NCBI GenBank assembly: GCA_032158295.1
Contig: CM063251.1
Span: forward strand, 16,443,738 to 16,507,737
DNA length: 64,000 nt
From: Pycnopodia helianthoides
Lineage: Eukaryota; Echinodermata; Asteroidea; Forcipulatida; Asteriidae
Direction of reading: 5' to 3'
Shown here: positions 2,891-50,139 of the stretch, piece after piece
Position numbering within the stretch: position 1 is the first letter of the stretch
Layout: every line of letters starts with the position of its first letter
The notes under the pieces: generated by a model
Database searches by the model: none
Told to the model about the DNA's origin: nothing
The model's input: the letters and a program-made list of their open reading frames with translations, nothing else
Made by a program: the position numbers and the translations under genes

Positions 2891-3427
2891 ATGGCGGACG
2901 GAATGTTCCGCTGGTTGCATTGCAAATGTATCTGTTTTAATCACTACTCACAAACTACATAACACTGTAGGTGCTTTTGTGTATGAACAACTCTGCTGTT
3001 GTTAATGCATGATGGTTATTCTTATTTTTAATAACGGTATTAATTGACACAAACAAAACAGCTGGCCAATTTGTTTTCTTCAAAAATGTGGATTAAATTT
3101 TTGAAAGCTTCTTATAATAATTCTTAAACGAAACGATTACAAAAACAAAACAAATGTTTGCTGATTCTAAAATCTGAGCTGCTGACATTCTTGTACCCTC
3201 CTTTCAATTGGAAGCGTGGACCAAGAAATACACCCTTCTCGGCACTATGCATTAAGGGAGCAGGGGTGATAGGCATACGGAGGGGTATATTATTGTCGTC
3301 AGTGTTTTTTTTTTTTCTTCTTCTTCTTTAAGTACTATGACTTATAAACGTCTCTGTGAAACACATTGCGACAATCAACAACAATTAACGTTTACCGAGC
3401 CATTTTTTTAACACCTCTCGTAAGTCT

Positions 3428-3433
3428 TTTATT
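3428..3433 (-). terminator. candidate polyadenylation signal, copy A
   Basis: AATAAA on the minus strand about 350 bases past the stop codon. The equivalent place in copy B reads ATTAAA, a weaker variant. Both are positional guesses. Confidence 0.3.
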
Positions 3434-3779
3434 TTCTTTCAGTTCATGTTAGTAACATTTGTAATGAGCACACACTGTTTGTTATTAACTAGTTTGTTAA
3501 GTTAGTATCATGTTTTATGCCAAGCCAATTAGAATAAATCTTCAATTTTCAGAAGAAAACAGATAGCGGTTATTGTTTTTGTCCATGTCACTGAAATGTT
3601 TTAATTCTGATGTTGCATTTAAAAGGTGGATTTTAAAGACTGCACGTTGAAACAAAGGTTGTGCTTGCCAAGCAGAATTTACTACAGAGATTGCGTATAA
3701 CGCTTCAGTCCAATGTTGTTGTTTTAATTTTAGGAGACACTATTAATGAAGAGCGGTTCGCATTCTGCATTATGGTCAT

Positions 3780-6700
3780 TTAGCAGAGTTCGTAAACTTC
3801 TTCATAGGAGCATCCTTCACTACAACACTCTTCGCTCAGACTTCTCTTCTCAATTCCCCTCTCCAGGAAGTTAGTGGCGTCTTCCTTCGTTTCCAAGAAA
3901 TCATCTATAGTATCGATCAATTAAACCAATCGATCAGTAGTTGTATTAGTGACCAGTGGACGAACGGACTGTGCAAGTCTCGCGCATCTTCAAACATCGG
4001 GACCCGTTAAAGTGTGTGAGTTTTATTCGTTCAAGCGTTAAAACAATGGGACCGAAGTGGTCCCAATAATGTTCGAATAGATCCCTTGCATTGGCCGCCA
4101 TCTTTGATGAAACGTGCACGCGTGAAGAGCTATCATTGGCTGAGAGTCGTGCTGAGCGCGTACACGCTCGTACGTTTCCATTGTTTTTCATCAAAATTGG
4201 TGGTCAGTGACGCCATGTGCAATCCATACGCTGAAGACTTGCATGGTCTATACTGTCTCAACAGATGGATTGCACATGACGTCATTGACCACCATCTTTG
4301 ATGAAAAACAACGGAAACCTGCACGCGTGTACGCGCCGCGCACGACTCTCAACCAATGATAGCTCTTCACGCGTGCACGTTTCATCAAAGATGGAGGCCA
4401 ATGCAAGGGGTCTATATTATTGATGGTTAAGCACCATCATGGGCGTATGGGGGGGGGGGGCCTCTCTAGTTAAAGGGGGCACAGGGGTTAATTTTACATA
4501 GCTAAATTATAAGTAACCATTTTCTAACACAGATTGAAAAGTCTTTTTGCTTTCTCTGTCCAGTCCTCCCCCCACACTTTTTTTTTAGCTTGCTGTACCC
4601 AAATTTTTTGCAGTTTTTCCCCTTAATTTGGAAGGGCAGTAATCCCGGACAGTACGCTATGGGCATCGGTCAGTTTCACCATTGCCATTCGTAACTCTGT
4701 GCTTCGTCTTATTGATAAGGATTAATAATGAGGGGGGGGGGAAACAATAATTTACCCGTGTAAAAGTAACCTCATAATTATCTTTAGTTCAGATCATATC
4801 TCAAACAAATTGATATCAAAAACTTTTAGTTTAGAGTATGCAGTGCATGATCTAGTTTGATGCAACACCAACATAATCTAGATTTAACATGGCGTAGTGC
4901 TGAACGAGCAACACCACTGCACAAACCGTGTTACCAACTCGTAAGACTAAATGAAAGATTCATTTGTGTTGTTTTTTTTACATACATGCATACCAAGTTG
5001 TTTTCGAACCAATTAAGCAGCCGACCAATTGACACCAGGTAACGCGGAAAAAAGCAAGTTCTTACTATGCGTCTTTTTAGTTGTTGCTATTGTTGTTGTT
5101 TTTAATTTATTATTTTATGTTATTATTATTATCTTTCATATGTACATATAAATCACTCTGCGCATGTATATGGTGTCATCTACAAGCAATCGTATCGGTC
5201 AGCTCCACGAAAGGCAAATTAATTATTCATACAAAACGTTTTGTCAAGTCGGCACACAATTGTAAAGAAAACCTTAAAGGTTGTTGTTTCTGTTTTTCGT
5301 GCCTTGACTTACGGTAAGACTCACCGTCTCTTAAGGTATGATGGGTACAGCTGCAAAGGGCCTCCTTCCTCTGCTCTAGGACGCTGCCGCACCAATAGTT
5401 AGTAGGAGAGCGCTTCATCACATCAGGGTTGTCCGCTCTGTGTGAACACAAGACACCCCGTGTTACTTATTGCATTCGGTGAATGTCTGAACACGGGATA
5501 CACAACACAGTGAAGAACCAACGGTTCTGCTCCACGGCCAGGGCACTTTGGTGATGTTGGAGTCTTCAGTGGGGTCTTTTTCAAAGAGGATGTGTTCGAC
5601 ATCGAGAACAGGGGCGTAAATCCCATCTCTTCAGTTATATTTATTTATTCAATTGTTTATTTCTCTGACTTACTGCGTTTGAAGCTATACAGCTTCATTT
5701 ATTTAGGATGCTTATCAAAAGAAACGTACAGTATACAATAAGTAATTAATGAGAAGTATATTTATATATTATTTATTTATTAATTTATCAGTTTGGTACA
5801 CACAGCTTCATTACAATGGAGATATGGCGGGGTAAAATCATACTTTTGCAACTCATATTTGAAGTATATATTTTTTTAACAGTTAAAACAAAAGTGAAAT
5901 AATTTTCTTTAAAAAAGAAGACAACAAACTTCTTTAAGCAGTTTTTATTTTTACTTTTATGATAAGCACCCCCAGGACACCAGATGAAACACTCCGGGAG
6001 ATATCTAGTGAACAGACTCAGAGGTTAAAGACAAACTACAGTAATATCGTAAAACGATTAAACAAATTATGGGTTTCAATCGGTACAAACTGGTTAGAGA
6101 GAGTTCTAAATCCTCCAGAGAACCGTTTCCATCTGAAACACTGTTAAACAAGAGGACATACTGTTTAAAAGATCCCACAGATCACCGATGCTTCTTTCGA
6201 ATAGCCACAACCAAAATAGGGTCGAAATGAAGAAGCACAGACAAACGTATGACGACCAATTTGCACGAAATTATTCACAGATTGTTTGTTCGTAAGTTAT
6301 AAAAAGAGAGTGGAACTGGAACGAAACCCATCCGAAAGAAGGACAAGGAAAAGGCAGAAGGAAATCGGATTACTGACTGGATACTTACAACACCTGTCGA
6401 AACTCTCTCACAAAACCACAGTGCTCAGATCCAACAGAAACGGGTTCATCAGGCTTCATGTTTTGCCTGCCATATACTGTAACAAAGATTCATAGCTCAA
6501 ATGTTCATTATTAAGATACTGTAGGAAGATGATTCTGATATATTTTTTTTAATTGTGCCTGTTATTCTATCTAAATTTCCCCACCGAAAGACAAATCTGT
6601 GATGGCCCTTATAACCAAACATCTTTATCTTGACATACTCTGACAGTATGTGCCAAATTTAATGCTTGTGTCATCAAAGACACAATTCCTCCGTAATTCT

Positions 6701-7476
6701 TCACATATCTGCCCCACTATTGAACCCTTACCCGTTAAATAAATTACCCATGACCATAACTTGTCACCTCTTTTTTTTTTTTTTTAAAGGTGTTATGATC
6801 ATAGCTGCTATATGCTGTAAGATTGCTTACTAATAGGAGTGAAGGTCACATGTTTTTTGTTTGTTTGCTTGTTTGTTGGGACATAATTTTCGATGAATTA
6901 TTGTGCATTTTGTCAAAATAGGATCGGGGCCATGGCAGTCCTGAAAGAAACGCCTATATAGATGAGATTAGATTAGATTAGATTAGATTTGTTTATTCAA
7001 CACAAAAGCATGAAAAGAGTTTTCCCAGTCAATAAAATACAAAAGCTCACAAATGTAATAGTAACAATTGCAATAAGCACAGATAATATAACAGAACAAC
7101 AAAAGTGTTTAAAAGCAGAAAATGCAACATACAAAAATGGAAAGGCATAACAAAGAAAACACAGCTTACGACAAGCCCATGGCCCCCAAATATAAATAAA
7201 TACTAAATAAACAAATATTAGTTAATATGAATAAATAAATAATAACAAAAAGAAATAAATAGTAATAATGATAGTTCAACAAGAAAACAATAACTAAACA
7301 CATAAAAATAAATCATTCATCTGGAAAAACAGTTGTTATTACTGTCTGATGGCTGACGGGAGAAAGGAATCACTGAACTGATTTGTGTTCATAGGTCGGT
7401 TCACTTGTTTTTTTTAAAACTCACCTTGACAGACGAAAGCAAGAGCCAAAGAAGTGAAAAGCAGCACACGATCCAT
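3780..7476 (-). CDS. insulin/relaxin-superfamily peptide precursor, copy A
   Basis: Four-exon model: 7425-7476 (signal peptide), 6639-6716 (propeptide, tentative), 5325-5435 (B chain), 3780-3904 (A chain and stop). All junctions are GT-AG and phase 1. Exon 1 reads MDRVLLFTSLALAFVCQ, a typical hydrophobic signal. Exon 3 has K-R followed by NYWCGSVLEQRKEALCSC, showing the B-chain hallmarks CGxxL and C-x11-C plus an additional C two residues later. Exon 4 has E-K-R followed by SLSEECCSEGCSYEEVYELC and stop, which is the A-chain CC-x3-C-x8-C pattern. The intron between B and A is phase 1 in the C-peptide, as in insulin genes. Predicted length is 121 aa (95 aa if exon 2 is skipped). The relaxin receptor-binding motif RxxxR is absent from the B chain, so insulin-like versus relaxin-like is unresolved. 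Predicted role: secreted hormone cleaved at dibasic sites. No clear dibasic site follows the B chain, so processing there may be monobasic. Confidence 0.86.
4077..4415. mobile_element. palindromic MITE (foldback), unit A
   Basis: Arms of about 150 bp form an imperfect inverted repeat around a short centre. Ends are ATAGATCCCTTGCATTGG and CCAATGCAAGGGGTCTAT. It encodes nothing convincing: open frames on both strands mirror each other because of the palindrome. It lies in the intergenic DNA downstream of the gene's promoter side and is present at the same site in unit B, so it predates the duplication. Confidence 0.75.
4438..4667. mobile_element. MITE-like repeat with GGGCGTA / TACGC ends (unit A)
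   Basis: Starts CATGGGCGTA with a long G tract and ends AGTACGCTATGGGC. The interior has TTTTGCTTTCTCT, a C tract and AATTTGGAAGGGCAG. The same layout occurs at 11543-11769 (duplicate) and, diverged, at 40402-40651. Confidence 0.55.
6639..6716 (-). other. tentative propeptide exon 2 of copy A insulin-like gene
   Basis: A 78-bp segment bounded by a CAATAG acceptor and a GTATGT donor, phase 1 on both sides, so it fits between the signal exon and the B-chain exon without changing frame. It encodes Q-I-C-E-E-L-R-R-N-C near its start. The third paralogue has an exon at the same position with the same acceptor hexamer and a matching C-x-x-L. If included, it adds three cysteines to the propeptide in copy A. 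Without it the gene still reads through, so it could be alternative or unused. Confidence 0.5.
6962..7330 (-). mobile_element. LINE-like 3' end with (AATCT)n tail, unit A
   Basis: A pentanucleotide tract (GATTA repeated on the plus strand) is followed by TTTGTTTATTCAACACAAA, which reads on the minus strand as a GAATAAA-containing 3' end with a microsatellite tail. This is the form of CR1/L2-type non-LTR retrotransposon ends. No reverse transcriptase is present. The copy at 14088-14394 is its duplicate. Confidence 0.45.
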
Positions 7477-7528
7477 GCATGTTCGATTTAGATTTCACAG
7501 TGAAGATCAATTCTAGCAGGGTGTCTGC

Positions 7529-7535
7529 TTTTATA
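7529..7535 (-). promoter_or_regulatory. TATA box of insulin-like copy A
   Basis: TATAAAA on the minus strand, about 53 bases upstream of the start codon. This leaves room for a short 5' UTR. The same motif sits at the same distance in copy B. Confidence 0.65.
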
Positions 7536-8001
7536 CAGTGCCGTTCGAAGAGAATCCTTTATTAGGTTATTCATGAGATGGTAAAATATGCAAACATTGA
7601 ATCATTAGTTTACGTATATGTAAGTTTGGTTGAAGTAATTCTCTTCGTGGTTTAGTTGGATCACTAATAGCTGAGCGATGTTCCCTCCTCCTCGAAGCAG
7701 ATATTATACGTTGTAAAATAAAATAAAGTTTGTTTGAGGAACACTGCTTATCGTTTACAATTAGTCAAATCAAATTTTCCCCTAAAAAAGAATTGGCTTC
7801 CATTTAAAGCAAGTTACTTTAGCTTTCTACGGTTTTTATTTTATACAACTGTTTTTTTTTTTTTTTTTTTTTTTTTTTGGGGGGGGGAGTGTTATTTCAA
7901 ATAGTCCAACACATATCGTCTGTTTGCCCGTATCCCCTGCAACAACGTATTCATCTAGTATATACATTATTGAAACATTTTGATAGTTACTCCCCAAAAC
8001 A

Positions 8002-8286
8002 CACTAAAGCCTCACCTTTTGGTGACCCATTTGAGGGAGATGCACCTCCGGGTCAGAATTGACCCGGTGCCTAGTCCCGTGGGGCCTGACAGACGTTTGG
8101 GTTAGTATGACCCAGAATCTGTGTTAAGATTACCCATAAATGGGTCAAACTTACGCAAAAGTGGAGTTAAAATCACAATTTTTAATTTTTTTAAAACCAG
8201 TTTCCGGGTAATTCTGACCCACAAATGGTTCAGGCCCCTTGGGACCAGGAGTCAAGGTCAATTCTGACCCAGGAGCTTTTAGAGTG
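8002..8286. mobile_element. GGGTCA/TGACCC element, unit A
   Basis: Ends CACTAAAGCCTC and GAGCTTTTAGAGTG form a TIR. The interior is packed with GGGTCA and TGACCC in both orientations. Related copies are at 16028-16311 (duplicate) and 62861-63294. Mobile nature is inferred from the TIR and three locations. Confidence 0.6.
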
Positions 8287-9252
8287 GCAACTTTGAAAGT
8301 GTTTTTTGCCCGTTTCCTCTAAATTAATACAGACATTTTTGATTTTGTGCGTGCATTCAAGATGAACAGAATCTGCTCGGTTGAACAAACAGTTATTAGC
8401 AAAGATAACATTTCACAAAAAGAAGCGACTTTTCAATCGATAATTGTAAATGACCTTTTAACCCCCTCCTAAATCACACCATCTCGAAAATCACAGGATT
8501 GCTTAATTTTCCATTTTCTTTAACACACTGGTCAGCTCATGCCATAAGATCGTTAGCTGGACCATGCCGCGCGTCCTAGGGGTTGTCAATCAACATGGGA
8601 CAATGGTTTGGTTAGAAAGGGCAGGACGAAACTCTGCCAGCATCTTTTGTGTACGAGATCGGTCTGTAAAATTGTCTGTCAACTGTCAACATTAGATGAA
8701 CAGAATTATACAAATTAATTAATCAAGCAAAAAACATGAAGTTTACCCAGGCAATACCTGTACATGTAAACAACACACTTGTTATCTCAGGGAAAAAGCT
8801 TGGAGGCATGTGCTGACATTGTAAGAAAGTTACGTTTATCCCAATTAATAGGTGCCGCGTTTGAGGGTTTTAAAATAGCCCTGCCAAATAGTTATTCTTC
8901 ATTGAATTAACAATTTAACGCTTCTGAAGTTTATCATTCCAATAAAAAAGAAGTTGGATACCAATCAGTAAATCGACTGGCAGTCATTATACTTGTCCCT
9001 GAACTTCCCTGAAGAACTGTATTTAACGGTACCCATTATTCATTATGCTGGTTTGATAGTTAAAATTTAACCTTTACTTATAATGGCCGTGTTTCAAAGA
9101 AGGGTGAGATTAAATGAAACTGGTGCACAAGCATGGATCAAGTGCAAGACTAAAGGGTACGCTTTGCACGCTGTTTTGCTTAAAGGAGAGAGGGCAGATT
9201 CACACTTCCCAGGAGGCATTAGACACACAAGTTTTGTATCAACATGATGATA

Positions 9253-9628
9253 TTAAAGGCAAAGTATACCTTTGGTTTTTGTACCGTTCGATTGTTTTAA
9301 TCCTCTATAAATGTAGATATAATATAATAAAACTAACCTGTGAAAGTTTCATTTCAAAAGGTGGTAGCGTTTTTGAGATATCGCCCAAAGTTTGGAGCGG
9401 TTATGTCCACACATGAAGAATAATCCCTCATAGGAAGACACAATCTGAGAAACGTTTCTGACAGAAACGTTTCTCAAAGCTGACATCTTTTTCCATATCC
9501 ACATCATTTTGAAATGAAATATTTCTCCAAATGCTTTATACTATCGAAAGTTGCTGTACTTCTAACCAAGTAAGTTTTGATTGCCTTTAATTGGCTGAGT
9601 GATTACCAATCGTGTACCTTCCCTTTAA
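9253..9628. mobile_element. MITE, TTAAAGGCA...TGTAC family
   Basis: Ends TTAAAGGCAAAGTATACCTT and ACCAATCGTGTACC...CCCTTTAA form a TIR. The interior (AACCTGTGAAAGTTTCA, GAAACGTTTCT hairpin) matches 61896-62291 along most of its length. A truncated inverted copy begins at 16806. There is no coding sequence. Confidence 0.72.
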
Positions 9629-10883
9629 GGCCGGGTAAAGCCATTTGATGCGCATATATTCCCCTTGCATCACACAACCCCAGGGACTTAAAGTTGATGT
9701 TCAGTTCCTTCAAGCTTGTGTTAATAAAAGATTGTGTATTTCAATCGGTAAAACGAAAGACTCACGACTGATTTCAAGGATACGAATGTCCGTTTACCAT
9801 CATTTATTCACTGTAATCCCATTGCAGCCCACCTTGAGCTAAACTGGGACGTTGGGCGAAAGTGACGTCAACAGTCAGGTGGATAAGGTGCCGAAAGAGT
9901 AAAGGTGTGCTTCTAACAGGTGCAGAAACAATGAAACGAAACGAATTCAAAGAACAGTACAGCCATGCTGATGCTTTAAATGGACAAAGTAAGAGCGAGG
10001 AACTTCTTCCTATCGCAAAAACGCGCGAACAATTTAACTAGAAACGTTATCAATCCTTGAATCCTTAGTATGTGTTACCATTGTTATGATTTATTTTGAG
10101 AAGTTTGATATCTTATTATGTAAGAACTATATGTTTGAAAGTTGTTTTGGGGTAAATGAGAGAATGAAAAAAAAAACCCAAAACCCAAACAAACAAAACT
10201 CAAAAAAGGCTTCTTATTAATAATTCTCAAACGAAACGATTACGAAAAACAAATGTTTGCTGATTTCAAAAATCTGAGCTGCTGACATTCTTGTACCATC
10301 CTTTCAATTGGAAGCGTGGACCAAGGAATACACCCTTTTCGGCACTATGCATTAAGGGAGCAGGGGTGATAGGCATACGGAGGGGTATATTATTGTCTTC
10401 AGTGTTTTTTTTTCTTCTTCTTCTTCTTCTTCTTTAAGTACTATGACTTATAAACGTCTCTGTGAAACACATTGCGACAATCAACAACAATTAAAGTTTA
10501 CCGAGCCATTTTTTTAACACCTCTCATAAGTCTTTAATTTTCTTTCAGTTCATGTTACGTAACATTTGTAATGAGCACACACTGTTGTTATTAACTAGTT
10601 TGTTAAGTTAGTATCATGTTTTATGCCAAGCCAATTAGAAATAAATCTTCAATTTTCCGAATAAAAACGAACAACGGTTATTGTTTTGTCCATGTCACTG
10701 AAATGTTTTAATTCTTATGTTGCATTTAAAAGGTGGATTTTAAAGACTACACATTGAAACAAAGGTTGTCCTTTCCAAGCAAAATTACTACAGAGATTGC
10801 AAACAACGTTTTAGTCCAATGTTGTTGTTTTAATTTTAGGAGACACTATGCAAAGAGCGGTTTGCATTCTGCATTAAAGTCAT

Positions 10884-13800
10884 CTAGCAGAGTTCGTAAA
10901 CTTCTTCATAGGAGCATCCTTCACTACAACACTCTTCGCTCAGACTTCTCTTCTCGATTCCCCTCTCCAGGAAGTTAGTGGCGTCTTCCTTCGTTTCCAA
11001 GAAATCATCTATAGTATCGATCAATTAAACCAATCGATCAGTAGTTGTATTAGTGACCAGTGGACGAACGGACTGTGCAAGTCTCGCGCATCTTCAAACA
11101 TCGGGACCCGTTAAAGCGTGTGAGTTTTATTCGTTCAAGCGTTAAAGCAATGGGACCGAAGTGGTCCCAATAATGTTCGAATAGATCCCTTGCATTGGCC
11201 GCCATCTTTGATGAAACGTGCACGCGTGAAGATCTATCATTGGCTGAGAGTCGTGCTGAGCGCGTACACGCTCGTACGTTTCCATTGTTTTTCATCAAAA
11301 TTGGTGGTCAGTGACGCCATGTGCAATCCATACGCTGAAGACTTGCATGGTCTATACTGTCTCAACAGATGGATTGCACATGACGTCATTGACCACCATC
11401 TTTGATGAAAAACAACGGAAACCTGCACGCGTGTACGCGCCGCGCACGACTCTCAACCAATGATAGCTCTTCACGCGTGCACGTTTCATCAAAGATGGAG
11501 GCCAATGCAAGGGGTCTATATTATTGATGGTTAAGCACCATCATGGGCGTACGGGGGGGGGGGCCTCTCTAGTTAAAGGGGGCACAGGGGTTAATTTTAC
11601 ACAGCTAAATTATAAGTAACCATTTTCTAACACAGATTGAAAAGTCTTTTTGCTTTCTCTGTCCAGTCCTCCCCCCACACTTTTTTTTTTAGCTTGCTGT
11701 ACCCAAATATTTTGCAGTTTTTCCCCTTAATTTGGAAGGGCAGTAATCCCGGACAGTACGCTATGGGCATCGGTCAGTTTCACCATTGCCATTCGGTAAC
11801 TCTGTGCTTTGTCTTATTGATAAGGATAAAATAATGAGGGGGGGGGAAACAATAATTTACCCGTGTAAAAGTGACCTCATAATTATCTTTAGTCAGATCA
11901 TATCTCAAACAAATTGGTATCAAAAACTTTTAGATTAGAGTATGCAGTGCATGATCTAGTTTGATGCAACACCAACATAATCTAGATTTAACATGGCGTA
12001 GTGCGGAACGAGCAACACCACTGCACAACCGTGTTACCAACCCGTAAGACTAAATGAAATATTCATTTGTGTTTTTTTTGTGTGTTTTTTTTTTATTATT
12101 ATTTTTTTTTACATACATGCATACCAAGTTGTTTTCGAACCAACTAAGCAGCCGACCAATTGACACCAGGTAACGCGGAAAACAAAGCAAGTTCTTACTA
12201 TGCGTCTTTTTAGTTGTTGCTATTGTTGTTGTTTTTAATTTATTATTTTATGTTATTATTATTATCTTTCATATGTACATATAAATCACTCTGCGCATGC
12301 ATATGGTGCCATCTACAAGCAATCGTATCGGTCAGCTCCACGAAAGGCAAATGATTTATTAATACAAAACGTTTTGTCAAGTCGGCACACAATTGTAAAG
12401 AAAACCTTAAAGGTTGTTGTTTCTGTTTTTCGTGCCTTGACTTACGGTAAGACTCACCGTCTCTTAAGGTATGATGGGTACAGCTGCAAAGGGCCTCCTT
12501 CCTCTGCTCTAGGACGCTGCCGCACCAATAGTTAGTAGGAGAGCGCTTCATCACATCAGGGTTGTCCGCTCTGTGTGAACACAAGACACCCCGTGTTACT
12601 TATTGCATTCGGTGAATGTCTGAACACGGGATACACAACACAGTGAAGAACCAACGGTTCTGCTCCACGGCCAGGGCACTTTGGTGATGTTGGAGTCTTC
12701 AGTGGGGTCTTTTTCAAAGAGGATGTGTTCGACATCGAGAACAGGGGCGTAAATCCCATCTCTTCAGTTATATTTATTTATTCAATTGTTTATTTCTCTG
12801 ACTTACTGCGTTTGAAGCTATGCAGCTTCATTTATTTAGGATGCTTATCAAAAGAAACGTACAGTATACAATAAGTAATTAATGAGAAGTATATTTATAT
12901 ATTTATTTATTTATTAATTTATCAGTTTGGCACACACAGCTTCATTACAATGGAGATATGGCGGGTAAAATCATACTTTTGCAACTCATATTTGAAGTAT
13001 TTTTTTTTTAACAGTTAAAACAAAAGTGAAATAATTTTCTTTAAAAAAGAAGACAACAAACTTCTTTAAGCAGTTTTTATTTTTACTTTTATGGTAAGCA
13101 CCCCCAGGACACCAGATGAAACACTTCGGGAGATATCTAGTGAACAGACTCAGAGGTTAAAGACAAACTACAGTAATATCGTAAAACGATTAAACAAATT
13201 ATGAGTTTCAATCGGTACAAACTGGTTAGAGAGAGTTCTAAATCCCCCAGAGAACCGTTTCCATCTGAAACACTGTTAAACAAGAGGACATACTGTTTAA
13301 AAGATCCCACAGATCACCGATGCTTCTTTCGAATAGCCACAACCAAAATAAGGCCGAAATGAAGAAGCACAGACAAACTTATGACGACCAATTTGCACGA
13401 AATTATTCACAGATTGTTTGTTCGTAAGTTATAAAAAGAGAGTGGAACTGGACGTACCCATCCGAAAGAAGGACAAGGAAAAGGCAGAAGGAAATCGGAT
13501 TACTGACTGGATACTTACAACACCTGTCGAAACTCTCTCACAAAACCACAGTGCTCAGATCCAACAGAAACGGGTTCATCAGGCTTCATGTTTTGCCTGC
13601 CATATACTGTAACAAAGATTCATAGCTCAAATGTTCATTATTAAGACACTGTATGAAGATGATTCTGATATATTTTTTTTAAATTGTTCCTGTTTCTCTA
13701 TCTGTATTTCCCCACCGAAAGACAAATCTGTGATGGCCCTTATAACCAAACATCTTTATCTTGACATACTCTGACTGTATGTGCCAAATGTAATGCTTGT

Positions 13801-14898
13801 GTCATCAAAGACACAATTCCTCCGTAATTCTTCACATATCTGCTCCACTATTGAACCCTTACCCGTAAAATAAATTACCCATGACCAAACCGTTAACATA
13901 TTTTTATAAAAAAGTGTTATGATCATAGCTGCTATGCTGTAAGATTGCTTACTAATAAGAGTGAAGGTCACATTTTGTTTGTTTGTTTGTTTGCTTGTTT
14001 GTTGGAACATCCGATTTTCGATGAATTATTGTGCATTGTCACAATAATATCGGGGCCATGGCAGTCCTGAAAGAAACGACTATATAGATGAGATTAGATT
14101 AGATTTATTTATTCATCAATAAGCATGAAAAGAGTTTTCCCAGTCATTAAAATACAAAAGCTAAAAAATATAAGTAGTATAAAAATGGAACAATCACAGA
14201 TAATAAAACAGAAAAACAACAACCAAAACTGAACAAGAGTGTTTAAAAGCAGCCAATGCAAAAAAAGAAAAAAAAAAGGAAATGTATGAACAAGCGAACA
14301 CAGCTTACAACAAGTCCATGCCCCCCCAAATAATAATATATAAATAATAATAATATATAAACAAAGTACTTAAAACATAAAATAAATAATTGGTGTTTGA
14401 AGCTTTGCATGGTGTGGAGATAAGAGGTAACAATAAATAAATAGTAAACTTGCGTGTACAACCATGTAATAGAACTCTTTTGTGGGAGTGTAGGCTCTGA
14501 AAAGAGCCGGTTTGGTCTCGACGTTTCGAGCAGTATACTCTGCTCTTCTTCTTCTTCTGTATTACTATCATTATTCTTGATTTTCCTGAAGAAGAGCAGA
14601 GTATACTGCTCGAAACGTCGAGACCAAACCGGCTCTTTTCAGAGCCAACACTCCCACAAAAGAGTTCTATTACATGGTTGTACCCGCAAGTTTACTATGT
14701 ATTTATGAATAGTTACCTCTTAAATAATTCCTCTGGAAAAACGGCTGACAGGAGTAAGGAATCCCTATACTGATTAGGCTAGTATTCATAGGTCGGTTCA
14801 CTTTTTTTCTTCTTCTTACTCTTAAAACAACATTTGAAAGTCTTACCTTGACAGACGATAGCAAGAGCCAAAGCAGTGAAAAGCAGCACACGATCCAT
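10884..14898 (-). CDS. insulin/relaxin-superfamily peptide precursor, copy B
   Basis: Tandem paralogue of copy A with exons 14847-14898, 13770-13847 (tentative propeptide), 12458-12568 (B chain) and 10884-11008 (A chain). Splice sites and phases are the same. The B-chain exon has the same sequence as copy A, and the A-chain exon encodes the same residues, ending in TAG instead of TAA. Differences fall in the signal peptide (Ser to Ala, Phe to Ile) and the propeptide exon (Gly to Glu, Lys to Thr, Cys to Ser). Both copies would therefore release the same mature hormone. Introns differ by small indels and by copy-specific insertions, mainly between exon 2 and the promoter region. Confidence 0.86.
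11181..11519. mobile_element. palindromic MITE (foldback), unit B
   Basis: Duplicated copy of the element in unit A with a handful of substitutions and the same ends. It lies inside the long intron between the A-chain and B-chain exons, as does the unit A copy. Confidence 0.75.
11543..11769. mobile_element. MITE-like repeat with GGGCGTA / TACGC ends (unit B)
   Basis: Duplicated copy of the preceding family in unit B, ending AGTACGCTATGGGC. Confidence 0.55.
13770..13847 (-). other. tentative propeptide exon 2 of copy B insulin-like gene
   Basis: Same length, acceptor (CAATAG) and donor (GTATGT) as in copy A. It is open in the frame set by exon 1 and keeps phase 1. Residues near the start are V-E-Q-I-C-E-E-L-R-R-N-C. 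The third cysteine seen in copy A is Ser here. The long frame that runs through it upstream (to about 14010) has no start or splice support and is taken as chance. Confidence 0.5.
14088..14394 (-). mobile_element. LINE-like 3' end with (AATCT)n tail, unit B
   Basis: Shorter duplicate of the unit A element, with only three GATTA units and more AT-rich decay. It is interrupted on its far side by the foldback insertion. Confidence 0.42.
14395..14721. mobile_element. foldback element specific to unit B
   Basis: Two arms of about 140 bp (from 14422 and to 14721) are near-perfect inverted repeats around a 25-bp centre, sharing GCTCGAAACGTCGAGACC. Unit A has uninterrupted sequence at the matching site, so it inserted after the duplication. 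A single arm of the same family is at 17938-18105. Open frames across the arms are palindrome shadows. Confidence 0.8.
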
Positions 14899-14950
14899 GC
14901 TTGTTCTATTACGATTTCACAATGAGGATCTACTCAAGCCGGGTGTCTGC

Positions 14951-14957
14951 TTTTATA
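14951..14957 (-). promoter_or_regulatory. TATA box of insulin-like copy B
   Basis: TATAAAA on the minus strand about 53 bases upstream of the ATG, as in copy A. A roughly 600-bp insertion absent from copy A begins within about 10 bases upstream of it, so the two copies share the core promoter but not the proximal upstream sequence. Confidence 0.65.
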
Positions 14958-14961
14958 CAGC

Positions 14962-15585
14962 GCTGACCAAATTAACGATCAGCCTTCTGAGGGTCATTTT
15001 AAAGTCTCCTTCAAAAGAGCCTTATAAGGCCGTGTCAGAATTGGCGGCTTACGGCTACGGCTAGATCGCTGCTTCATTATGCGTTGAAGTATAGGACGAC
15101 CTCAGCAACACCCATAGCAACAGTCGTAGTCGTTGCTGTAGCCACTAATTCGGATACGGTCTTACTCGCTCATTAGGTAACTAATTAGCCTTCTCCCCCG
15201 ACTCCGCTGCTCGTTTTCAAAGAGAGCTTTTTAGCTGCTCCTAATTTTAGTTATTTTGTCCTGGCATTATCTGTTTAACTAGCTCCGTACCAGTTCATTC
15301 TACATTCTCTCATGTTTCGTTTGTTTTTTTTGTGTTTTTTGTTAATTATGTATTGTTTTTGTAATTTGTTTTGTCTGGTGCTGTTCCCCACAAGCCTCGG
15401 CTTATTTGAACAGCCTCTTTACTCACAGCTTCTATTGTTTTACTTTTCGTCATTATTATCTTTGGTCATGTTTTATACTCTTTGATTGTATTATACTACT
15501 ATATTTTGTTGTCCAAAGGATTCTGTTTATTATTGTGAGTATGGTAATAAATGTGACATTGAATTGAGTTGAATTGAATTGAATT
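14962..15585. mobile_element. composite insertion upstream of copy B promoter
   Basis: Absent from unit A. It contains a small TIR element (about 15027-15163; ends GGCCGTGTCAGAATTGG and CTAATTCGGATACGGTC) followed by a plus-strand LINE-like 3' end finishing AATAAATGTGACATTGAATT and a GAATT-type tail at about 15545-15585. It lies directly upstream of the copy B TATA box. Confidence 0.65.
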
Positions 15586-16027
15586 CAAAGAGATTCCGTT
15601 GTTAGGTATTCATGAGATGGTAGTTTATGCAAACATTGAATCCTTATTATAGGTTTGCGTATGAAAGTTTGGTTGAAGTAATTATCTTCATGGTTTTAGT
15701 TGAATCACTAACCGAATGATGTCCCGCTCCTCGTTGTGAAATAAATTTAAGTTTGTTTGAGGAACACTGCTTATCGTTTACAATTAGTCAAATCAAATTT
15801 CCCCTGAAGAAGAAATGGTTTCCATTTAAAGCAAGTTACTTTAGCTTTCTACGGTTTTTATTTTACACAGTTTTTATTTTTATTTTTTTTTTTTTTTGGG
15901 GGGGGGAGTGACATTTCCAATAGTCCAACACATATCGTCTGTTTGCCCTTATCCCCCGGCAACAACGTAATCATCTAGTATATATATATACATTATTGAA
16001 ACATTTCGACAGTTACTCCCCAAAACA

Positions 16028-16311
16028 CACTAAAGCCTCACCTTTTGGTGACCCATTTGAGGGAGATGCACCTCCGGGTCAGAATTGACCCGGTGCCTAA
16101 TCCCGTGGGGCCTGACAGACTTTTGGGTCAGTATGACACAGAATCTGTGTTAAAATAACCCATAAACGGGTCAAACTGACGCAAAAGTGGAGTAAAAATC
16201 ACAACTTGTTTGATTCTAAAACCAGTTTCCGGGTCAGCCTGACCCACAAATGGGTCAGGCCCTTTGGGACCAGGAGTCAGGGTCAATTCTGACCCAGGAG
16301 CTTTTAGAGTG
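16028..16311. mobile_element. GGGTCA/TGACCC element, unit B
   Basis: Duplicate of the unit A element, with cleaner GGGTCA repeats and the same terminal inverted repeats. Confidence 0.6.
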
Positions 16312-16805
16312 GCAACTTTGAAAGTGTTTTTGCCCGTTTCCTTTAAATTAAACAAAACACTTAGGTAAAGAAATCATAGAAGAAGAAAAAAATATTTTAT
16401 CCTACGGAAATAGCTTGGAGGTATGTGCTGACAATGTAAGGGAGTTACGTTTGTTCCAATTAGGTGCCGCTTTTGAGGGTTTTAAAATAGCCCTGCCAAA
16501 AAGTTATTCTTCATTGAAATAACAATTAAAAGCTTCTGAAGTTTATCATTGAACTTTTTTTGTTCGTCATTCCAATAAAAAAGAAGTCGGATACCAATCA
16601 GTAAATCGACTGGTAGTCACTACACTTGTCCCTGAAGAACTGTATTTAATTAATATCCATTATTTAATATGCTGGTTTGATAATTATTATGTAACCTTCA
16701 CTTGTAATGGCCATGTTTCTAAGAAGGGTGAAATTAAATTAAACTGGTGCACAAGCATGGTCAAGTGCAAGACTTAAGGGTGCGCTTTGCACGCTGTTTT
16801 GCTTA

Positions 16806-16960
16806 AAGGCACAGTACACGTTTGGTAATGACTCTGAAAATTAATGGCAATAAAAACTTACCTGGTAAGAAGTACAGCAGCCTTGGGTAGTACAATGAAT
16901 TTTGAGAAACTTTTAACTTCGAAGTACGGTTTTGGAAAATATATCACTTTTTCCCCCCAA
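16806..16960. mobile_element. truncated MITE, TTAAAGGCACAGTACACG family
   Basis: Opens with the terminal repeat AAAGGCACAGTACACGTTTG and then reads as the reverse of the right part of the 61896-62291 element. Similarity fades after about 150 bp. It sits at the end of the duplication unit. Confidence 0.55.
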
Positions 16961-17930
16961 TACACAGGCCCTCCTGTCCAAGGTCAAATTAACTTTGGTG
17001 ATGCATTCATTTTCCAGAAAAAAAAGGATTCCTCGTTGAAGTAGAAAGTGGATGTGATACTAATTAATTCAGTGCAAAATTTGAAACGTGACGTCATTGG
17101 ATGTCAACAGCAAAAGAGTCTGCACATTCTAAGGACGGATTTTTTGTCAGTCAAAACGTCAAATTCAACGCCGTTTTGATTGAATATCATGAACAGTCAG
17201 AAATTATCAAAAAATACCCGTACACAAAAATGTACAGAACCTTTGTATTTGGAATGTGACGTCATTTGGATGTTGACAAGTTTCGCACTGGAAGGATATC
17301 AAACACAACGGTATTTTACACCGTTTTAACGTGAGGATAGAGAGTCTTGTAATTTTCATTCCAGTTCTTTTTTAAACTCTATCTTTTGGGAAATGAATTC
17401 ATCAGAGAATTTCATTTGACCTTGGAGCCCCTTTGTAACATTGAACCGGTATGCTTTAGTTTGCGTATTTGCCATGGTTTTCAGAGAGCGCAGACGGCCT
17501 CGCTCACACAACTGGGTATCAACGCATCTCGATGAAGGGTAAATGACCACGCCTAAAACAATTAAATTTGTAGTATTTAAATGGAAGCGAAATATTTACA
17601 GGACCAGGAAGTGTTCCAACAATTATTTACTCAAGTCAAGTAGAGCATAAAACATGTTTTTTTTTAAGGGTAAATAACTTTAGCTTATATAGTTAGGACT
17701 TGAACTGGAAATGATGTGGCAGAAACTAATTAAGGTCAGAGTAATTAATCGAAATTGTTTAACCTTTAAATTAACCCTATCGAGACAGGGGCTTTGTTGA
17801 CCGAACAGAATTTTGTTTTCTCGTAAAATTTGTCTTTGCAAACTTTGTGAAGGATAGGAAGGAACTATAAACAGCCCAAATGTGCTTCCCGCAAGCGCTA
17901 CTTAAGCTCCATCACCACAAGCAGTCCAGC
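16961..17930. other. non-coding spacer with two CRE-like octamers
   Basis: No gene seen. TGACGTCA occurs at about 17090 and 17261 in similar contexts (GTGACGTCATTGGATGT, then GTGACGTCATTTGGATGT), indicating an old short duplication. Confidence 0.4.
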
Positions 17931-17937
17931 ATTCTCT

Positions 17938-18105
17938 TGAAGACGAGCAGAGTATACTGCTCGAAACGTCGAGACCACACCGGCTCTTTTCAGAGCCAAC
18001 ACTCTCCCAAAAGAGATTTACACATGGTTGTACCCGCAAGTTTACTTTTTTATTTATAGTTCCTTCCTACTTGTCCACACCATGCAAAGCTTCAAACTAC
18101 ACTTT
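17938..18105. mobile_element. half-element of the GAAACGTCGAGAC foldback family
   Basis: Matches one arm of the 14395-14721 element, including AGCAGAGTATACTGCTCGAA and the distal CCACACCATGCAAAGCTTCAAA, which also marks the left edge of that element. Confidence 0.65.
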
Positions 18106-18341
18106 GTGAAGGATATTTGCAGTTTGTTATAATGTCTTGATGATCGGCGGTCACCCAGTTTAAGATAAGACAACACACTGTTGTGATCTGTACTCACAAA
18201 AGTTAGAGTCCAATTCCAACTTATATTAAAATCCTACTCTTCAACAAAGTGTTTTGTATATCTTTCTAGATATTTTTTTTTTTTCGGGAGGCCCGCGACT
18301 GGAACACATTTTTGCCATATGGGGTGCTGGATTTTCAAAGA

Positions 18342-18700
18342 CAATTGGCAGAGGAAGCTTTGGGGTCTAAGATGCTCTGTCGTGCAATTAGAGCCACTAT
18401 TTGGCACTTAAATTTTCCTTCTTAGGGCGGGATATTTTAAGTGCAATTTCGAAAATGATTACCCCACAATAGTTTTTTGATTTTTTCACGAGGCGAAGTT
18501 GGGTGAAATGCACTTAAACAAAAGTTTAAAGTGAGTGCCCCGGAAGCTTTCTGGTCCTATAGATGCCCTGTCATTCAATCTGAGCCTCTATTGGCACGTA
18601 AATGTTCCTTTTGGGGGCTGGGCATTAGTTAGTGTAATTTGCAAAAATGATTATCCCACAACGATTTTTTTCACGAGGCGAAGCTGGCTGAAATGGAAAA
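18342..18700 (+). repeat. two-copy direct repeat, about 170 bp
   Basis: Copies at about 18342-18520 and 18533-18700 share GGAAGCTTT, GATGCTCTGTC/GATGCCCTGTC and TTTTTTCACGAGGCGAAG, with roughly 75-80 percent similarity. Confidence 0.65.
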
Positions 18701-18904
18701 GCCAGATTTCAACGGAGTGATTATAATATTCGACAATGCACGACGAACGAAATGCATTCAATGTTAATTTTGTTTGACTCAGACATAGATCCTTGGCATT
18801 AGAAATTTGTTCACATTAAACACAAAACACAAAACAGAAAATCGTACACCCCACAATCTGAACATTTTTTTGGTTTACCTTTCAAACAACGTTGAAGACA
18901 CTAC

Positions 18905-19290
18905 GTAGACACCAACCTTGTTCGCCTTAAATCCATCTTGCCTCGTTTGGGCAAACGGGCGGCGGGGAACGATTGTTTTGGAAACAACGATGCGATGTGT
19001 CCTACTATGCTTTTTCCGAACTTCGGCTTGGGCTGGGTCTTCAATTTTGGAGCCGTATGCAATTTTTTTCCCGTACCACACTAGAGCCAATGCTTACACG
19101 CATAAGGTATGGGCGCTTTCCCGGATCCCTTCACTGTTGACCCCCTGTCTCAAGTGTGGTACGAAAGAAAAAATTGCGAGACGTATACATTTTGCCCAGT
19201 GTTTCTATTATCAAACGGAGGTCGGAGCCCAAGCCGAGTTTTTGGAAAAAGCCCTTCAAGGGACAACAAACCGGGCATATCACAGTGTAG
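18905..19290. repeat. diverged long inverted repeat
   Basis: AGTGTGGTACGAAAGAAAAA at about 19153 mirrors the segment ending CCCGTACCACACT at about 19080, and CCCAAGCCGA on the right mirrors TCGGCTTGGG on the left. This explains the 126-codon plus-strand frame here, which is not regarded as a gene. Confidence 0.45.
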
Positions 19291-19514
19291 GCCTATAATA
19301 TTTTGATAATTTTGTTTTGCTTTAAAATATGACATGCTACACGTATTTATACTTTTTGACCTTTTCCAAGTTTTCCGTTCATGGGAGGGTGAATTTATGA
19401 AACACGTCTACTAGATTTAAGGGGTGCTCTAAATGAGTATATTCCAGCACCCTCATCCCCAACGTTTGGGGTGCTGCAACACCCACAGCACCCCCGCTCT
19501 CGCGGGCCTGGGAG

Positions 19515-20229
19515 CAGCGGCGTAGCCAGGACTTTTCAAATTGGTGAGGGGGGGGGGGTGCATTACTTTCAATTGGGGGGGGGGGTCTTGCTTTTGTTTT
19601 GGGAGGGGGAGTCTGCAGGGGGCCACAATCCTCTTATAATCTTGTCATTTTGTGGCCGCGGTTGTTATTCCGATCGTACGGAGCTTTTAAGGGGACATGG
19701 GTGGAGAAGACAAATCTGACAAAAAATCTTCGTTCGAACAAAAATAATCTTCGTTCAAACGAAAATAACCATCGTCCAAACGAAAATATTAACAAACCCG
19801 CAGCGCGCACGTGCCTGCAGACACAGTGCTGACAACGCTAGCAGCAGGCTGCTAGTGTGCATGCTGTATAGACGTTACTGATAGCGTGCCCCTACGTCGT
19901 CAACAATGGCGTCTGTGTCTCTGGTAGTACTCGTGCTTGATACGCGGGCTTGATAAGACTAATAATTGTTCGAACAAAAAACAATCTTTGGTTCGAACGA
20001 AGATTTGTTCAGATTTTTCCCCACCTATGTTCATTTAAAAGCTCCGTACGATCGCGATTGTTCACTACATTAGATTATACAAACACGCATTTTCCTCTTT
20101 TTTTCCATTTTCTTTATTTTTCTCTTTTTGTGAGCACTATCGTGGGGGGCACCTGGGGGGGGGCACCTGGGGGGCACTGGAAATTTGTGGGGGAGGGCAT
20201 GTGACCTCATGCCCCCCGGCTACGCCGCT
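19515..20229. mobile_element. TIR element with AGCGGCGTAGCC ends
   Basis: AGCGGCGTAGCC at the left and GGCTACGCCGCT at the right are perfect inverted ends. The interior has G-rich tracts and repeated TCGTTCGAACAAAAATAA-like motifs. No transposase is recognisable, so it is probably non-autonomous. Confidence 0.6.
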
Positions 20230-20408
20230 ACCTGTGAGGGGGAGGGGGGGGGGCGCTCTCACGAGTTCTCCATTGAACGATGTTGATAATGTCTGAACCC
20301 AATGTTATATAAGTCACTGTTGTTTACATCAACACATTGTGATGTAAGTAACATCATAAAACATATTCAAAAACAAACAAACAAAAACACACTAACAAAA
20401 CGTACCAA

Positions 20409-20428
20409 CATCAACAACAAAAACGACG

Positions 20429-20477
<49 letters not shown>

Positions 20478-20478
20478 C
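20409..20478 (+). repeat. (CAA)n microsatellite
   Basis: About 20 AAC triplets in a row. It creates a poly-Asn open frame that is not a gene. Confidence 0.95.
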
Positions 20479-21369
20479 CAAACAAAAGCCTACTGCAAGG
20501 TGTCGGTCAGGAATTCAGCTACTGGCAAACACATTCCATAGACGTTTGCATTCAAATTCATTTCCGTGGTGGGTCTATGCATCGAATTCGTTTCTCTTGC
20601 ATGATTTTTCTTGGGTTTTAAGAATTGTGTGTGAGAGGCTAATCTAGAAACTACGTGGTAACACCGTGTAATTACCCTTTCCATCCAATGAGTTGATGAG
20701 GTGGTGCTGGAAAGAACTGGCGCTACGGTGTAACGATTGCGCCGGTGTTAAAAACCATCAGTTCTTTTCAGAACCGGTTCTTCTCATTAAAGAATTTATC
20801 ACAAGGTGATGGATTTTTCCCCTTTTTGCAAAGTTTAAAATTCTACTTGTCTGCAAAACTAGTTTATTTTTGTCTTAATTTTGATTAACAAGGGGCAATG
20901 TATGTATTTTTTGTGTGAAAGACTGCTTTGTTAACACTTTATATTGATTTTGGCACTTACATATATACTTATTTTTGTAAATTTGAACTAAATTGGAAGT
21001 TGTAGAACTGCTACAAACTTTGTTTTACCAACATATTTTTGTTTTTATTGTGTCTCGGAAACGTGAACGCTTGTTTTCCTAATGAGGTTTTCAAAGGCTA
21101 GTTTTATTTTGTAGTCCCAAAAATACAATAAGTTACATTTGCAAAGCCATATTTATTTGTTTTTAACTCCCCCAAAGAAAACAAGCACTTCATGCTTAAA
21201 AGTCATCGGTGTTTATTTACATTTCTCTTATACGGACAATAAAGCTTTACATTTGTACAATTACAATTATTCAAACAAAATTTTAAAAATTGTTAAGCTC
21301 GAGAAAAAGAGAATACGTTTGTACCCAAAAGGTGCATAAAGAAGCACACAAATCTAAAATCGAAGTGTT

Positions 21370-21375
21370 TTTATT
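21370..21375 (-). terminator. candidate polyadenylation signal, paralogue C
   Basis: AATAAA on the minus strand about 220 bases beyond the stop codon. It is the first such hexamer noticed downstream. Not confirmed by any transcript evidence. Confidence 0.4.
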
Positions 21376-21595
21376 AACATTGTCTTAAAAAGACGAGTTT
21401 GTTTTGATAAAATAAAAGCTCACGTTTCACCTCTTTCTTTGGAATTCACTTCGAATAACGCGATATTGTAGAGAGACCAATTGTACAGTAAAAACATTAA
21501 CACAGTTTAATAAATGACCACACCAACTATTCAAACTCAAATTATTTAGAATCAAATTAAACAAAGATCATTTCTGGTCTGTTCCGGGTTTCATC

Positions 21596-23447
21596 TTAGC
21601 ATACTTCCTCAATCTCCTCCCAGTAGCAACCTTCGTTACAACATTCTTCTGAAAGGCTTCGTTTCTGGACGTTACGTGCTGACAAAAAGCCGTTGGCTTT
21701 GCCTCGGTTCACGAATGCTGGGAAGAGAGAAATTTATCACTGACTTAAAAAAACAATAGCTTCATATCAGGTGAAGTTGTAATGTATGTTACAGCCCTTT
21801 CGGTTTATGGAAAAAAAAATACACAATTTTAATATTGAAACTTCTGAATTAGAGAATCTTTCAAATGCAAAATGCGTACACCATTTTTATTATTATTATT
21901 TTTTTAATGAAATATCGCCTAACTCACAAGGCCGAACGGCCACTCAAGGTGAGGGCTACACTTAACTGATTTGGACTGTTGACCCAAATCAACTGACACC
22001 AGAGGCACGTTGCCACCTACTCTTGGGGCTGAAACAGGGTTACCCCCTTCACAGTCCGTAAGGATGTAGGCATGGGTATCATCCACTAGGAGCCTGGCTG
22101 GTGGTAGAGCAGAATGCACTACCCTCCCAACTGTTTACGAAGCAATTATGGTTAAGTGCCTTGCTCAAGGGCACAAGTGTCGTGACCGGGGCTCGAACCC
22201 ACACTGTGCTGCTGACAACACCAGAGCTTGTCTTTAGCAGGAAGGGTGGGGAGTTCAAGTGAACAAACTACTCATTGCTGGAGTACCAGAATTCTCATTT
22301 TAAACTCGCAAATGAACGAACGGGTGACATAAGAAAGTACCTGACAGGTCGAGCTCTCTCTTTCTGGGAACAAATCCGCAGGTGCAGTACGTATACTTCT
22401 TTTCATTCAACGTCTCCCCACAGAATGTGTGTATCGGGCCAGTCCAACGCTTCTGCCTGCACCGAGACAAAAAGAAGAAGAAGAAGAAGAATTTTTATGT
22501 CTTAGTCTTTTTAGGTTATAAGTAATGATTGGTAGTTTTTTCTTGAAACGAAACAAAATTGTCATTGGGTTGAATTATTGTAGACCATTATGGATGGTCT
22601 TTCAGTGGATATTAACACATAATGGATAATTCTTTAAAATAATGATAGCAAACGTAACCCTGACCGATCCCCTGTGGACAGTAGCCGGGAGCAGACAGGC
22701 TTCAAGACTGACAAGAGCAACCACAAAATGGTGTATACTGTTAGTTGGGCAAACATCAGTGATGTCCCAAGCAACCACGTTAATAGCAGCCTTGGAATGG
22801 TTTAGTGGCTTAGGGACTCATTTAGCAGAACACCAAGGAAGCTGGAGCGAGTACAGCATAATTCTTTGTGCTTGCTGCAGCCAATTGAATTTGTCTGCAC
22901 AAGTGTATTTTCATAAAATCTGATGAAAAACAATTGAGTGTCTGCTTGCGCATTCACAGCACAGTGGATTCGCATTCTCATCTTACAAGAACCACCGGTT
23001 AATATTTTGCTTTGCTTACGGTTAAGTAGCAGCTATGGTGCTAAATAACATCACCACAGGAAGAAACGGTCTGCGTGCATGCCTTATATACAGAGCATTT
23101 GGCACAGAACATTTAACTTGGTGGACCCCAAAACGACGTTTAATATTAAAAGTATGAATCTGTCTCGTTTGACTTACCCCTCGCTCTTGACCTGATCGGC
23201 AAGCTGCTTACAAGAGGCTTCATCAAGTTCAGTACCTATTGTAGAAACAACAAGACAGTTGTTGAAAAATAACCAGTGGGTATACCATACAAGAAAAGAA
23301 AAAAGAAAGGAAAACAACAACAACAACTACAACAACAGCAACAAAAGCAACAACAACAGCAACAGCAGCAACAGCAACAGCAATAGCAACAGCAACAGCA
23401 ACAGCAACATCAACAGCAACAGCAACAACAGCAACAAAAACAACAGC

Positions 23448-23490
<43 letters not shown>

Positions 23491-23961
23491 TCAACAACAA
23501 ACAACAGCAGCAGCAGCAGTTATTTTAAACCATATGTCAAAGCACTATGATGTGTTGTTCACACAGCCATGGATGGAGTATTTCTGTTTAAAAGTGTTCC
23601 CATTTATTATTGATAACTTGTTTCATTATCGATTTTCTTGCAAAATACAAACCCAGCTACATACAAAACTATCATTAACCATTCATCGCTCTACATGTGT
23701 AGTTCGGGGAAAAAACGTAGTTATTACGTCACTTGTTGTTACAAATCTTTAATATGTCTTAGTATGTGACAATTACTTTCAATAGGATATGATTCTTAGA
23801 AATAACAAAATTGCCGCCAAGAAAAAACGTGTACAAAGTCTACGTTACTTGAGTTGGAAGATCAAAAAAAGATAAATTACCACAAAACAAAGAGGACCAC
23901 GGAGCGAGAAAAAAACACACCAAACAAACAAACAAACAAACAAACAAACCAAGGCGCAAAG

Positions 23962-24005
<44 letters not shown>

Positions 24006-24427
24006 AACATTAAATGAACAGCATTGAAAACAAATTAAAAAGCAAATAAAATATACCGGAAGATAATTACCATTTTCTTTTGGTTTGTTCTTCCTTTGTC
24101 ACTCAGTACAATAAATTGGAACTAAACGGCGTGTCTAAAAAATTGCACACAGACACTGTACTTAACACGCAGGGAACGATGACTACCAAAATAGCGCAAC
24201 CAAGATCACTATGACTGTAATTGCTATTTGACCATTTGACCAAATGATCAAAATTGTCAAAAATTGCCAAATTTGATCATTTGACCATTTGACCATTTTG
24301 GTCACCAAGTATTTGAAGCACCAAGCCTTCAACGCCTTGGTGAGTTCGGACAATTCAATAACTTACCAGAAATGCTGACTGCCAGGCAGACGGTTAGCAG
24401 CAGCAGTGCAGCCATAAAGCGATTCAT
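21596..24427 (-). CDS. insulin/relaxin-superfamily peptide precursor, paralogue C
   Basis: Four exons: 24367-24427, 23178-23235, 22341-22456 and 21596-21717. Phases run 1, 2, 1 and every boundary is GT-AG. The 118-aa product has a signal peptide (residues 1-20, MNRFMAALLLLTVCLAVSIS), an N-terminal propeptide with one Cys (21-40), Q-K-R (41-43), B chain 44-70 with F-C-G-E-T-L and C52-x11-C64 then C66, an R-K-R site (71-73), C-peptide 74-96, K-R (97-98), and A chain 99-118 SLSEECCNEGCYWEEIEEVC. The A chain starts with the same S-L-S-E-E-C-C as copies A and B, so the three are paralogues. The extra B-chain Cys is conserved. Intron 1 carries CAA/CAG microsatellites and intron 3 carries a SINE. 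Family membership is firm; receptor type is not. Confidence 0.88.
21905..22265 (-). mobile_element. tRNA-derived SINE in intron 3 of paralogue C
   Basis: On the minus strand a B box (GTGGGTTCGAGCCCC) is followed by TTGAGCAAGGCACTTAACC, a conserved central block common in aquatic-animal SINEs. It lies between the B-chain and A-chain exons. Confidence 0.6.
23316..23520 (+). repeat. compound CAA/CAG microsatellite
   Basis: About 200 bp of CAA and CAG triplets in intron 1 of paralogue C. Poly-Asn and poly-Val frames on the two strands are artefacts. Confidence 0.95.
23920..24005 (+). repeat. (AAAC)n then (AAC)n microsatellite
   Basis: Tetranucleotide then trinucleotide tracts in intron 1 of paralogue C. 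Confidence 0.92.
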
Positions 24428-49810: not shown

Positions 49811-50139
49811 GGCGATGAACTTCAGTGCGGTCTTCAATTGGTCGGCAAGGCTCAAAGCCTAAAACAGGGAACAGAATGAATTCATTCGATGGTCAAGTTC
49901 TCTCAGACATTTTCTGTTTTTTTTCGTCGCCAGTAATTGCCTACTGGCAATTTTTCAACCAGGCCATCGGTGACCAAGAATTTTCTGCCGATCTACTTTA
50001 AACAAAATCCGAAATGTCGCAAATTGAGTGATTTCACTCAGAAGTTCGACTGGTGTACTATTAAATAATTACTTTCACATTATTATTGGATTTAGCTTGA
50101 AACAGTTTAGAGAGAAGTGCTTTGCAGTTGTATGAGACT

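Follow-up and report, generated by a model that had tools for sequence, protein, structure and literature searches.

Multinsulins, which are confined to Asterozoa, have four coding exons and KR sites and occur in small gene clusters (Veenstra 2021, PMC8286064). A further trait of the family is similarity to dilp7 orthologues, without the F domain of the latter. The main text of that study describes a phase 1 intron in their connecting peptide, a phase 2 intron common to dilp7 orthologues and another phase 1 intron, and reports that some members carry two extra cysteines. It also describes two types of gene with a single coding intron, namely octinsulin, which is single copy in echinoderms and has its extra cysteines placed elsewhere than those of multinsulins, and GSS. 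The locus considered here is a cluster of three insulin-type genes in the starfish Pycnopodia helianthoides, found in a 64,000-nucleotide stretch of DNA (NCBI GenBank assembly GCA_032158295.1, contig CM063251.1, positions 16,443,738 to 16,507,737 of the forward strand; hereafter the window, with positions counted from its first letter). It very probably represents three multinsulin genes of the eight-cysteine subtype. As the family has already been named, these genes add members to a known family of starfish hormones and do not constitute a new one; the interest lies in two testable extras, a possible third chain in the hormone and a motif in the connecting peptide (the pro-motif) that resembles the recognition site of gamma-glutamyl carboxylase.

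Gene structure and conservation

All three genes are on the minus strand and are packed within 21 kb, with gene 1 at 7476-3780, gene 2 at 14898-10884 and gene 3 at 24427-21596. Each is split into four coding exons (twelve in total, 52-125 bp), which measure 52, 88, 113 and 125 bp in genes 1 and 2 and 61, 58, 116 and 122 bp in gene 3. GT-AG boundaries are found at all nine introns, the phases run 1, 2, 1 in every gene, and splicing gives open precursors of 125, 125 and 118 amino acids for genes 1, 2 and 3, respectively. The layout is the same throughout: signal peptide, front peptide, dibasic site, B chain, connecting peptide and A chain.

The signal peptide is encoded by exon 1, at 7425..7476 in gene 1 (ATG start, gt donor, phase 1), 14847..14898 in gene 2 and 24367..24427 in gene 3. 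Exon 2 encodes the front peptide, which contains one cysteine, and lies at 6389..6476 in gene 1 (cysteine codon 6418-6420; ag/gt, ending in phase 2), 13519..13606 in gene 2 (13548-13550) and 23178..23235 in gene 3 (23210-23212). The dibasic site and B chain are in exon 3, at 5325..5437 in gene 1 (SPTNYWCGSVLEQRKEALCSC at 5347-5409; ag/gt, ending in phase 1), 12458..12570 in gene 2 (B chain at 12480-12542) and 22341..22456 in gene 3 (WTGPIHTFCGETLNEKKYTYCTC at 22378-22446). Finally, exon 4 carries the connecting peptide, the A chain and the stop codon, at 3780..3904 in gene 1 (A chain 3783-3842), 10884..11008 in gene 2 (10887-10946) and 21596..21717 in gene 3 (21599-21658). The C-x11-C pattern of the B chain is represented by CGSVLEQRKEALC in genes 1 and 2 and by CGETLNEKKYTYC in gene 3, while the A chains share the pattern SLSEECC-x3-C-x8-C and are followed directly, after their last cysteine, by the stop codon. 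KR convertase sites are present in the precursors, and the connecting peptide is interrupted by a phase 1 intron.

A preliminary description of this DNA had identified the three loci as insulin/relaxin-superfamily precursors, and their coordinates, minus-strand orientation, signal peptides, cysteine patterns and dibasic sites are all recovered here. The same is true of its agreeing splice phases, the SLSEECC start common to the three A chains and the upper exon size of 125 bp. The relaxin cassette that it inferred to be lacking is not evident here either, as no R-x3-R can be seen by eye in any of the three B-chain regions.

Nine relatives (P0001-P0009), all from starfish, were found in databases, two from Asterias amurensis, five from Acanthaster planci and two from Patiria miniata; they were gathered partly with a profile built on the first seven sequences and, with the three window genes, make up the set of twelve precursors discussed below. 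The two A. amurensis proteins align from end to end, P0001 to gene 1 at 77% identity (E = 7.4e-62) and P0002 to gene 3 at 81% (E = 1.5e-59). When searched against the window with tblastn, P0001 recovers all four exons of both gene 1 and gene 2, and P0002 all four of gene 3, with one split-codon residue unmatched. Such full-length matches to independent starfish proteins argue that the precursors are not a product of chance, and on the sequence evidence the three split genes are real. It had been suggested that automated gene finding could miss genes with such short exons, but the precursors of relatives from A. amurensis, A. planci and P. miniata are already database entries.

No further copy is apparent in the window. 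Using all nine relatives as tblastn queries at E up to 1, the single match outside the three genes is at 54 kb (E = 0.27), and exon-wise profiles that include the window genes give an outside best of E = 0.035, for a scrap of B chain at 49974-50024.

Relationship to described insulin families

Membership of the insulin/relaxin superfamily is supported by the anatomy of the precursors and by their orthologues. The Pfam Insulin profile (PF00049) matches genes 1, 2 and 3 with 18.6, 18.6 and 20.3 bits (E = 0.0039, 0.0038 and 0.0011), and at E up to 10 it matches 11 of the twelve precursors, the best at 6.6e-6. All three window scores nevertheless fall below the curated cut-off of 23, a weak point of the assignment; the assignment is retained because cysteine pattern, introns and orthologues agree, and such cut-offs are set by convention and do not define the superfamily. 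NCBIfam gives no match to any of the twelve at E up to 1. The predicted fold of one orthologue may point towards an insulin as well: a Foldseek search with the model of P0002 places IGF1 first of five rows, weakly (E = 0.96), and the model of P0001 returns no insulin among 16 rows.

Within the superfamily, the cluster agrees with the multinsulins in having four coding exons, three introns of which one is in phase 2 and the others in phase 1, KR sites, a small cluster of genes and, as in some members of that family, two extra cysteines (PMC8286064). Nothing found in the main text of that study contradicts membership. The insulin-type reading of the preliminary description stands, whereas the family itself had already been described as multinsulins, including their exons, phases and clustering. 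The window genes or their orthologues may already be in the tables of PMC8286064, because it drew on the genomes of Pisaster ochraceus, A. planci and P. miniata.

The other described types fit less well. The octinsulin of Ambulacraria likewise has eight cysteines, and RGP/GSS shares the superfamily and dibasic sites, but both are excluded by intron number, the window genes having three coding introns where each of these has one (PMC8286064). IGF is also excluded on its introns as given there, the phases here being 1, 2, 1. The available passages of two papers on starfish relaxin signalling (PMC11863921, PMC9759900) contain nothing on these genes.

Eight cysteines and a candidate third chain

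Each mature precursor encoded in the window contains eight cysteines rather than six, a point that the preliminary description had missed. Of the extra pair, one cysteine belongs to the front peptide and the other lies immediately past the B chain. Across the twelve precursors, this pair and the dibasic site that precedes the B chain are both present in ten and both absent in two; the latter are P0008 and P0009 of A. planci, which have six cysteines and no dibasic site at this position. The B chain of P0008 is also very arginine-rich.

This co-occurrence suggests that, in eight-cysteine precursors, the front peptide may form a third chain tethered by a disulfide. The product is very probably a secreted prohormone with the layout given above, which convertases would most likely cut at the dibasic sites, leaving the A and B chains held together by the insulin disulfides. 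The extra cysteines would probably form a fourth disulfide, and if the site before the B chain were cut, the front peptide would stay attached as the tethered chain. To our knowledge there is no other three-chain insulin, as checked against the text of a single study, and such an architecture, if true, would be unusual. The main text of that study, PMC8286064, makes no mention of it. Following Veenstra's argument, the receptor is probably the single insulin-type receptor tyrosine kinase.

A conserved motif in the connecting peptide

Insulin precursors usually evolve fastest in their connecting peptide. In all twelve precursors this peptide contains an invariant A-x2-F-L, and in eight of them the wider motif F-x5-A-x3-L is exact. 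Gene 3 is among the eight (FVNRGKANGFL at 21683..21715, minus strand), while genes 1 and 2 are not: in these, at 3864..3899 (FLETKEDATNFL, minus strand) and 10968-11003 respectively, and in P0001, there is one additional residue between F and A. In P0005 the F is replaced by L. A relaxed form, [FL]-x5 or x6-A-x3-L, is found in all twelve. In 20000 column permutations, which preserve the relatedness of the precursors, six reach eight exact matches and none reaches twelve relaxed ones.

The explanation inclined towards here is that this F..A..FL stretch is just an amphipathic helix involved in folding or sorting the prohormone. Both structural models predict a helix there, at residues 91-99 in one (predicted local distance difference test score under 50) and 83-92 in the other. 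True carboxylase recognition sequences are also reported to form a helix (PMC4537219), so this prediction cannot separate the two readings. What a helix for folding or sorting predicts is neither the spacing of a recognition site nor invariant A, F and L residues.

That spacing is the starting point for the other reading, in which the genes would encode vitamin K-dependent hormones: the connecting peptide would dock gamma-glutamyl carboxylase, and glutamates of the A chain would be converted to gamma-carboxyglutamate (Gla). This reading is speculative and rather unlikely, though testable, and it would supplement the multinsulin assignment, not replace it. The published recognition consensus is F-16, A-10, L-6 (PMC5578492), the spacing found exactly in eight of the precursors. 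Factor IX touches the carboxylase through F31 and L41, and its F31G and L41W variants bind over 10-fold more weakly (PMC12589487). Factor IX, factor X and prothrombin resemble the starfish precursors in the spacing of F, A and L and in the segment rich in Glu and Cys that follows; they differ in that the window genes have the cysteine pattern of insulin and no match to the Pfam Gla family: at E up to 10 the twelve precursors match five Pfam families between them, none of which is Gla.

An ungapped profile built from eight known propeptides was scanned along each precursor and compared with 3000 shuffles. The best window falls at the site, with fewer than 1% of shuffles as good, in seven of the twelve, gene 3 included (14 of 3000). 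Against this, genes 1 and 2 and P0001 are not significant in the scan (equalled by 1655, 1673 and 986 of 3000 shuffles, respectively), P0005 is weak (206 of 3000, or 0.07) and P0009 has its best window elsewhere (0.026). The score of gene 3 is 10.4 and that of genes 1 and 2 is 1.7; for reference, the scores are 6.9-21.5 for known propeptides when each is left out of the profile in turn, 7.8 for Gas6 and -0.3 for the connecting peptide of human proinsulin. The closest likeness to factor IX is in P0008, which is not a window gene: it shares 9 of 16 residues in register with the factor IX propeptide, a level reached by none of 20000 shuffles, as against three to six residues in the other eleven, and it alone has the L-to-KR distance of factor IX.

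Database searches point in the same direction. A search with the profile of all twelve precursors ranks factor X with its propeptide (E = 1.2e-5) and prothrombin (0.00097) above insulin (0.069), and vitamin K-dependent proteins supply the chains in 22 of its 24 rows, one of which bears just the name 'Activation peptide'. The top row, 7ue2 (E = 8.3e-7), which from its name we take to be a designed repeat protein, was set aside; it matches in the signal and front region, where no stretch passes alone. In searches with single precursors, a Gla protein comes first in four of five (P0008, E = 0.0058; gene 1, 0.086; P0007, 0.14; P0004, 0.4) and second in the remaining one (gene 3, 0.25), all weak matches. 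In the alignments inspected, ANxFL in the connecting peptide, together with the A chain, lines up with the Gla domain at its ANSFLEE start and Cys-Glu core, so that the match is to the mature N-terminus of Gla proteins instead of their propeptide.

Several further points count against carboxylation. The motif was spotted after the database match, so its p-values are post hoc. The A chain contains E-x3-E-x-C twice in all twelve precursors, but 465 of 20000 column shuffles reproduce this in all twelve, so it is largely a matter of composition and is weak evidence for carboxylation. Periostin provides a published false alarm, having a similar motif without being carboxylated (PMC4537219). On the other side, an insulin can evidently be modified in this way, since cone snail venom insulins bear gamma-carboxylated Glu (PMC6372279); those are venom components, whereas the starfish case would be a predicted endogenous hormone. 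Nothing relevant to gamma-carboxylation of a starfish or echinoderm insulin was found among the matches listed in the literature, and the main text of PMC8286064 mentions neither carboxylation, vitamin nor propeptide.

Were the pro-motif a true carboxylase site, it would explain the invariant A-x2-F-L and imply a hormonal role for vitamin K-dependent modification in an animal that lacks the clotting system of vertebrates; the expected product would be an insulin that binds calcium or is tuned to its receptor. The fullest version of the proposal, in which multinsulins would be endogenous gamma-carboxylated insulins with the connecting peptide as docking site and the eight-cysteine members would also be three-chain hormones, is improbable, because it joins the doubtful carboxylation to a third chain considered just somewhat likelier than not.

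Duplication history

The preliminary description also missed the near identity of genes 1 and 2, which are tandem copies within a duplication spanning 3104..16809 (approximately 3104-9186 against 10206-16809). Only four bases differ over the 378 bp coding sequence, and coding exons 2 and 3 are identical. Divergence is 1.4% in intron 2 and 1.9% in intron 3, rising to 5.3% in the 3' flank, 11.4% in the aligned part of intron 1 and 13-24% in upstream blocks, with gaps counted. From this pattern we infer an older tandem duplicate of which exons 2-4 would have been homogenised by gene conversion. That one gene was falsely doubled by the assembly, with two haplotypes set in tandem, would account for the identical exons and the small divergence of introns 2 and 3, but is improbable given the unevenness elsewhere, as a pair of haplotypes would be more evenly diverged; an older duplicate reshaped by gene conversion is the better fit. 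A 340-bp segment of intron 3 of gene 1 (4077-4415) matches the other copy (11181-11519) in inverted orientation, at 86%, which suggests that this intron contains a palindromic element.

A tree of eleven rows, from which gene 2 was omitted as a near copy and in which the first 18 residues of each row were trimmed, groups gene 1 with P0001, P0005 and P0007 and gene 3 with P0002, P0003, P0004 and P0006 (support 90/93 and 86/82); one of the eight inner branches is starred, two are open and the branch to P0006 is long. This gives moderate support, on sequence comparison, to a split between the gene 1 and gene 3 types that predates the separation of Asterias from Acanthaster and Patiria, and suggests that the two types found together here were already linked before that separation. 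The local expansion proposed in the preliminary description therefore holds for genes 1 and 2 but not for the gene 3 type, which is an older paralogue and has its own relatives in three further starfish.

Other features of the window

In a tandem array at 24883-26347, a 135-bp unit is repeated 10.8 times (93% matches). Each unit contains, by eye, a stretch resembling a transfer RNA (tRNA) on the minus strand (GGTTCGAA box); ARAGORN detects no tRNA in the array, Rfam returns nothing at E up to 1 and one unit folds no better than its shuffles. Scans of the whole window with Rfam at the gathering threshold and for tRNA also gave no hits. A 79-bp minisatellite of 7.5 copies (96% matches) is present at 1989-2580.

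Protein-coding features include a single long open frame (32604-34970, minus strand) for a Kelch-like protein that combines BTB, BACK and Kelch repeats, and an exon of a subtilase-family protease (63372-63746, minus strand). Another local duplication is represented by two neighbouring major-facilitator gene copies at 46400-49860 and 54900-58230, monocarboxylate-transporter-like by eye; Pfam MFS_1 is absent from 57845-58234 and matches in 47004-47828 and 54906-56261.

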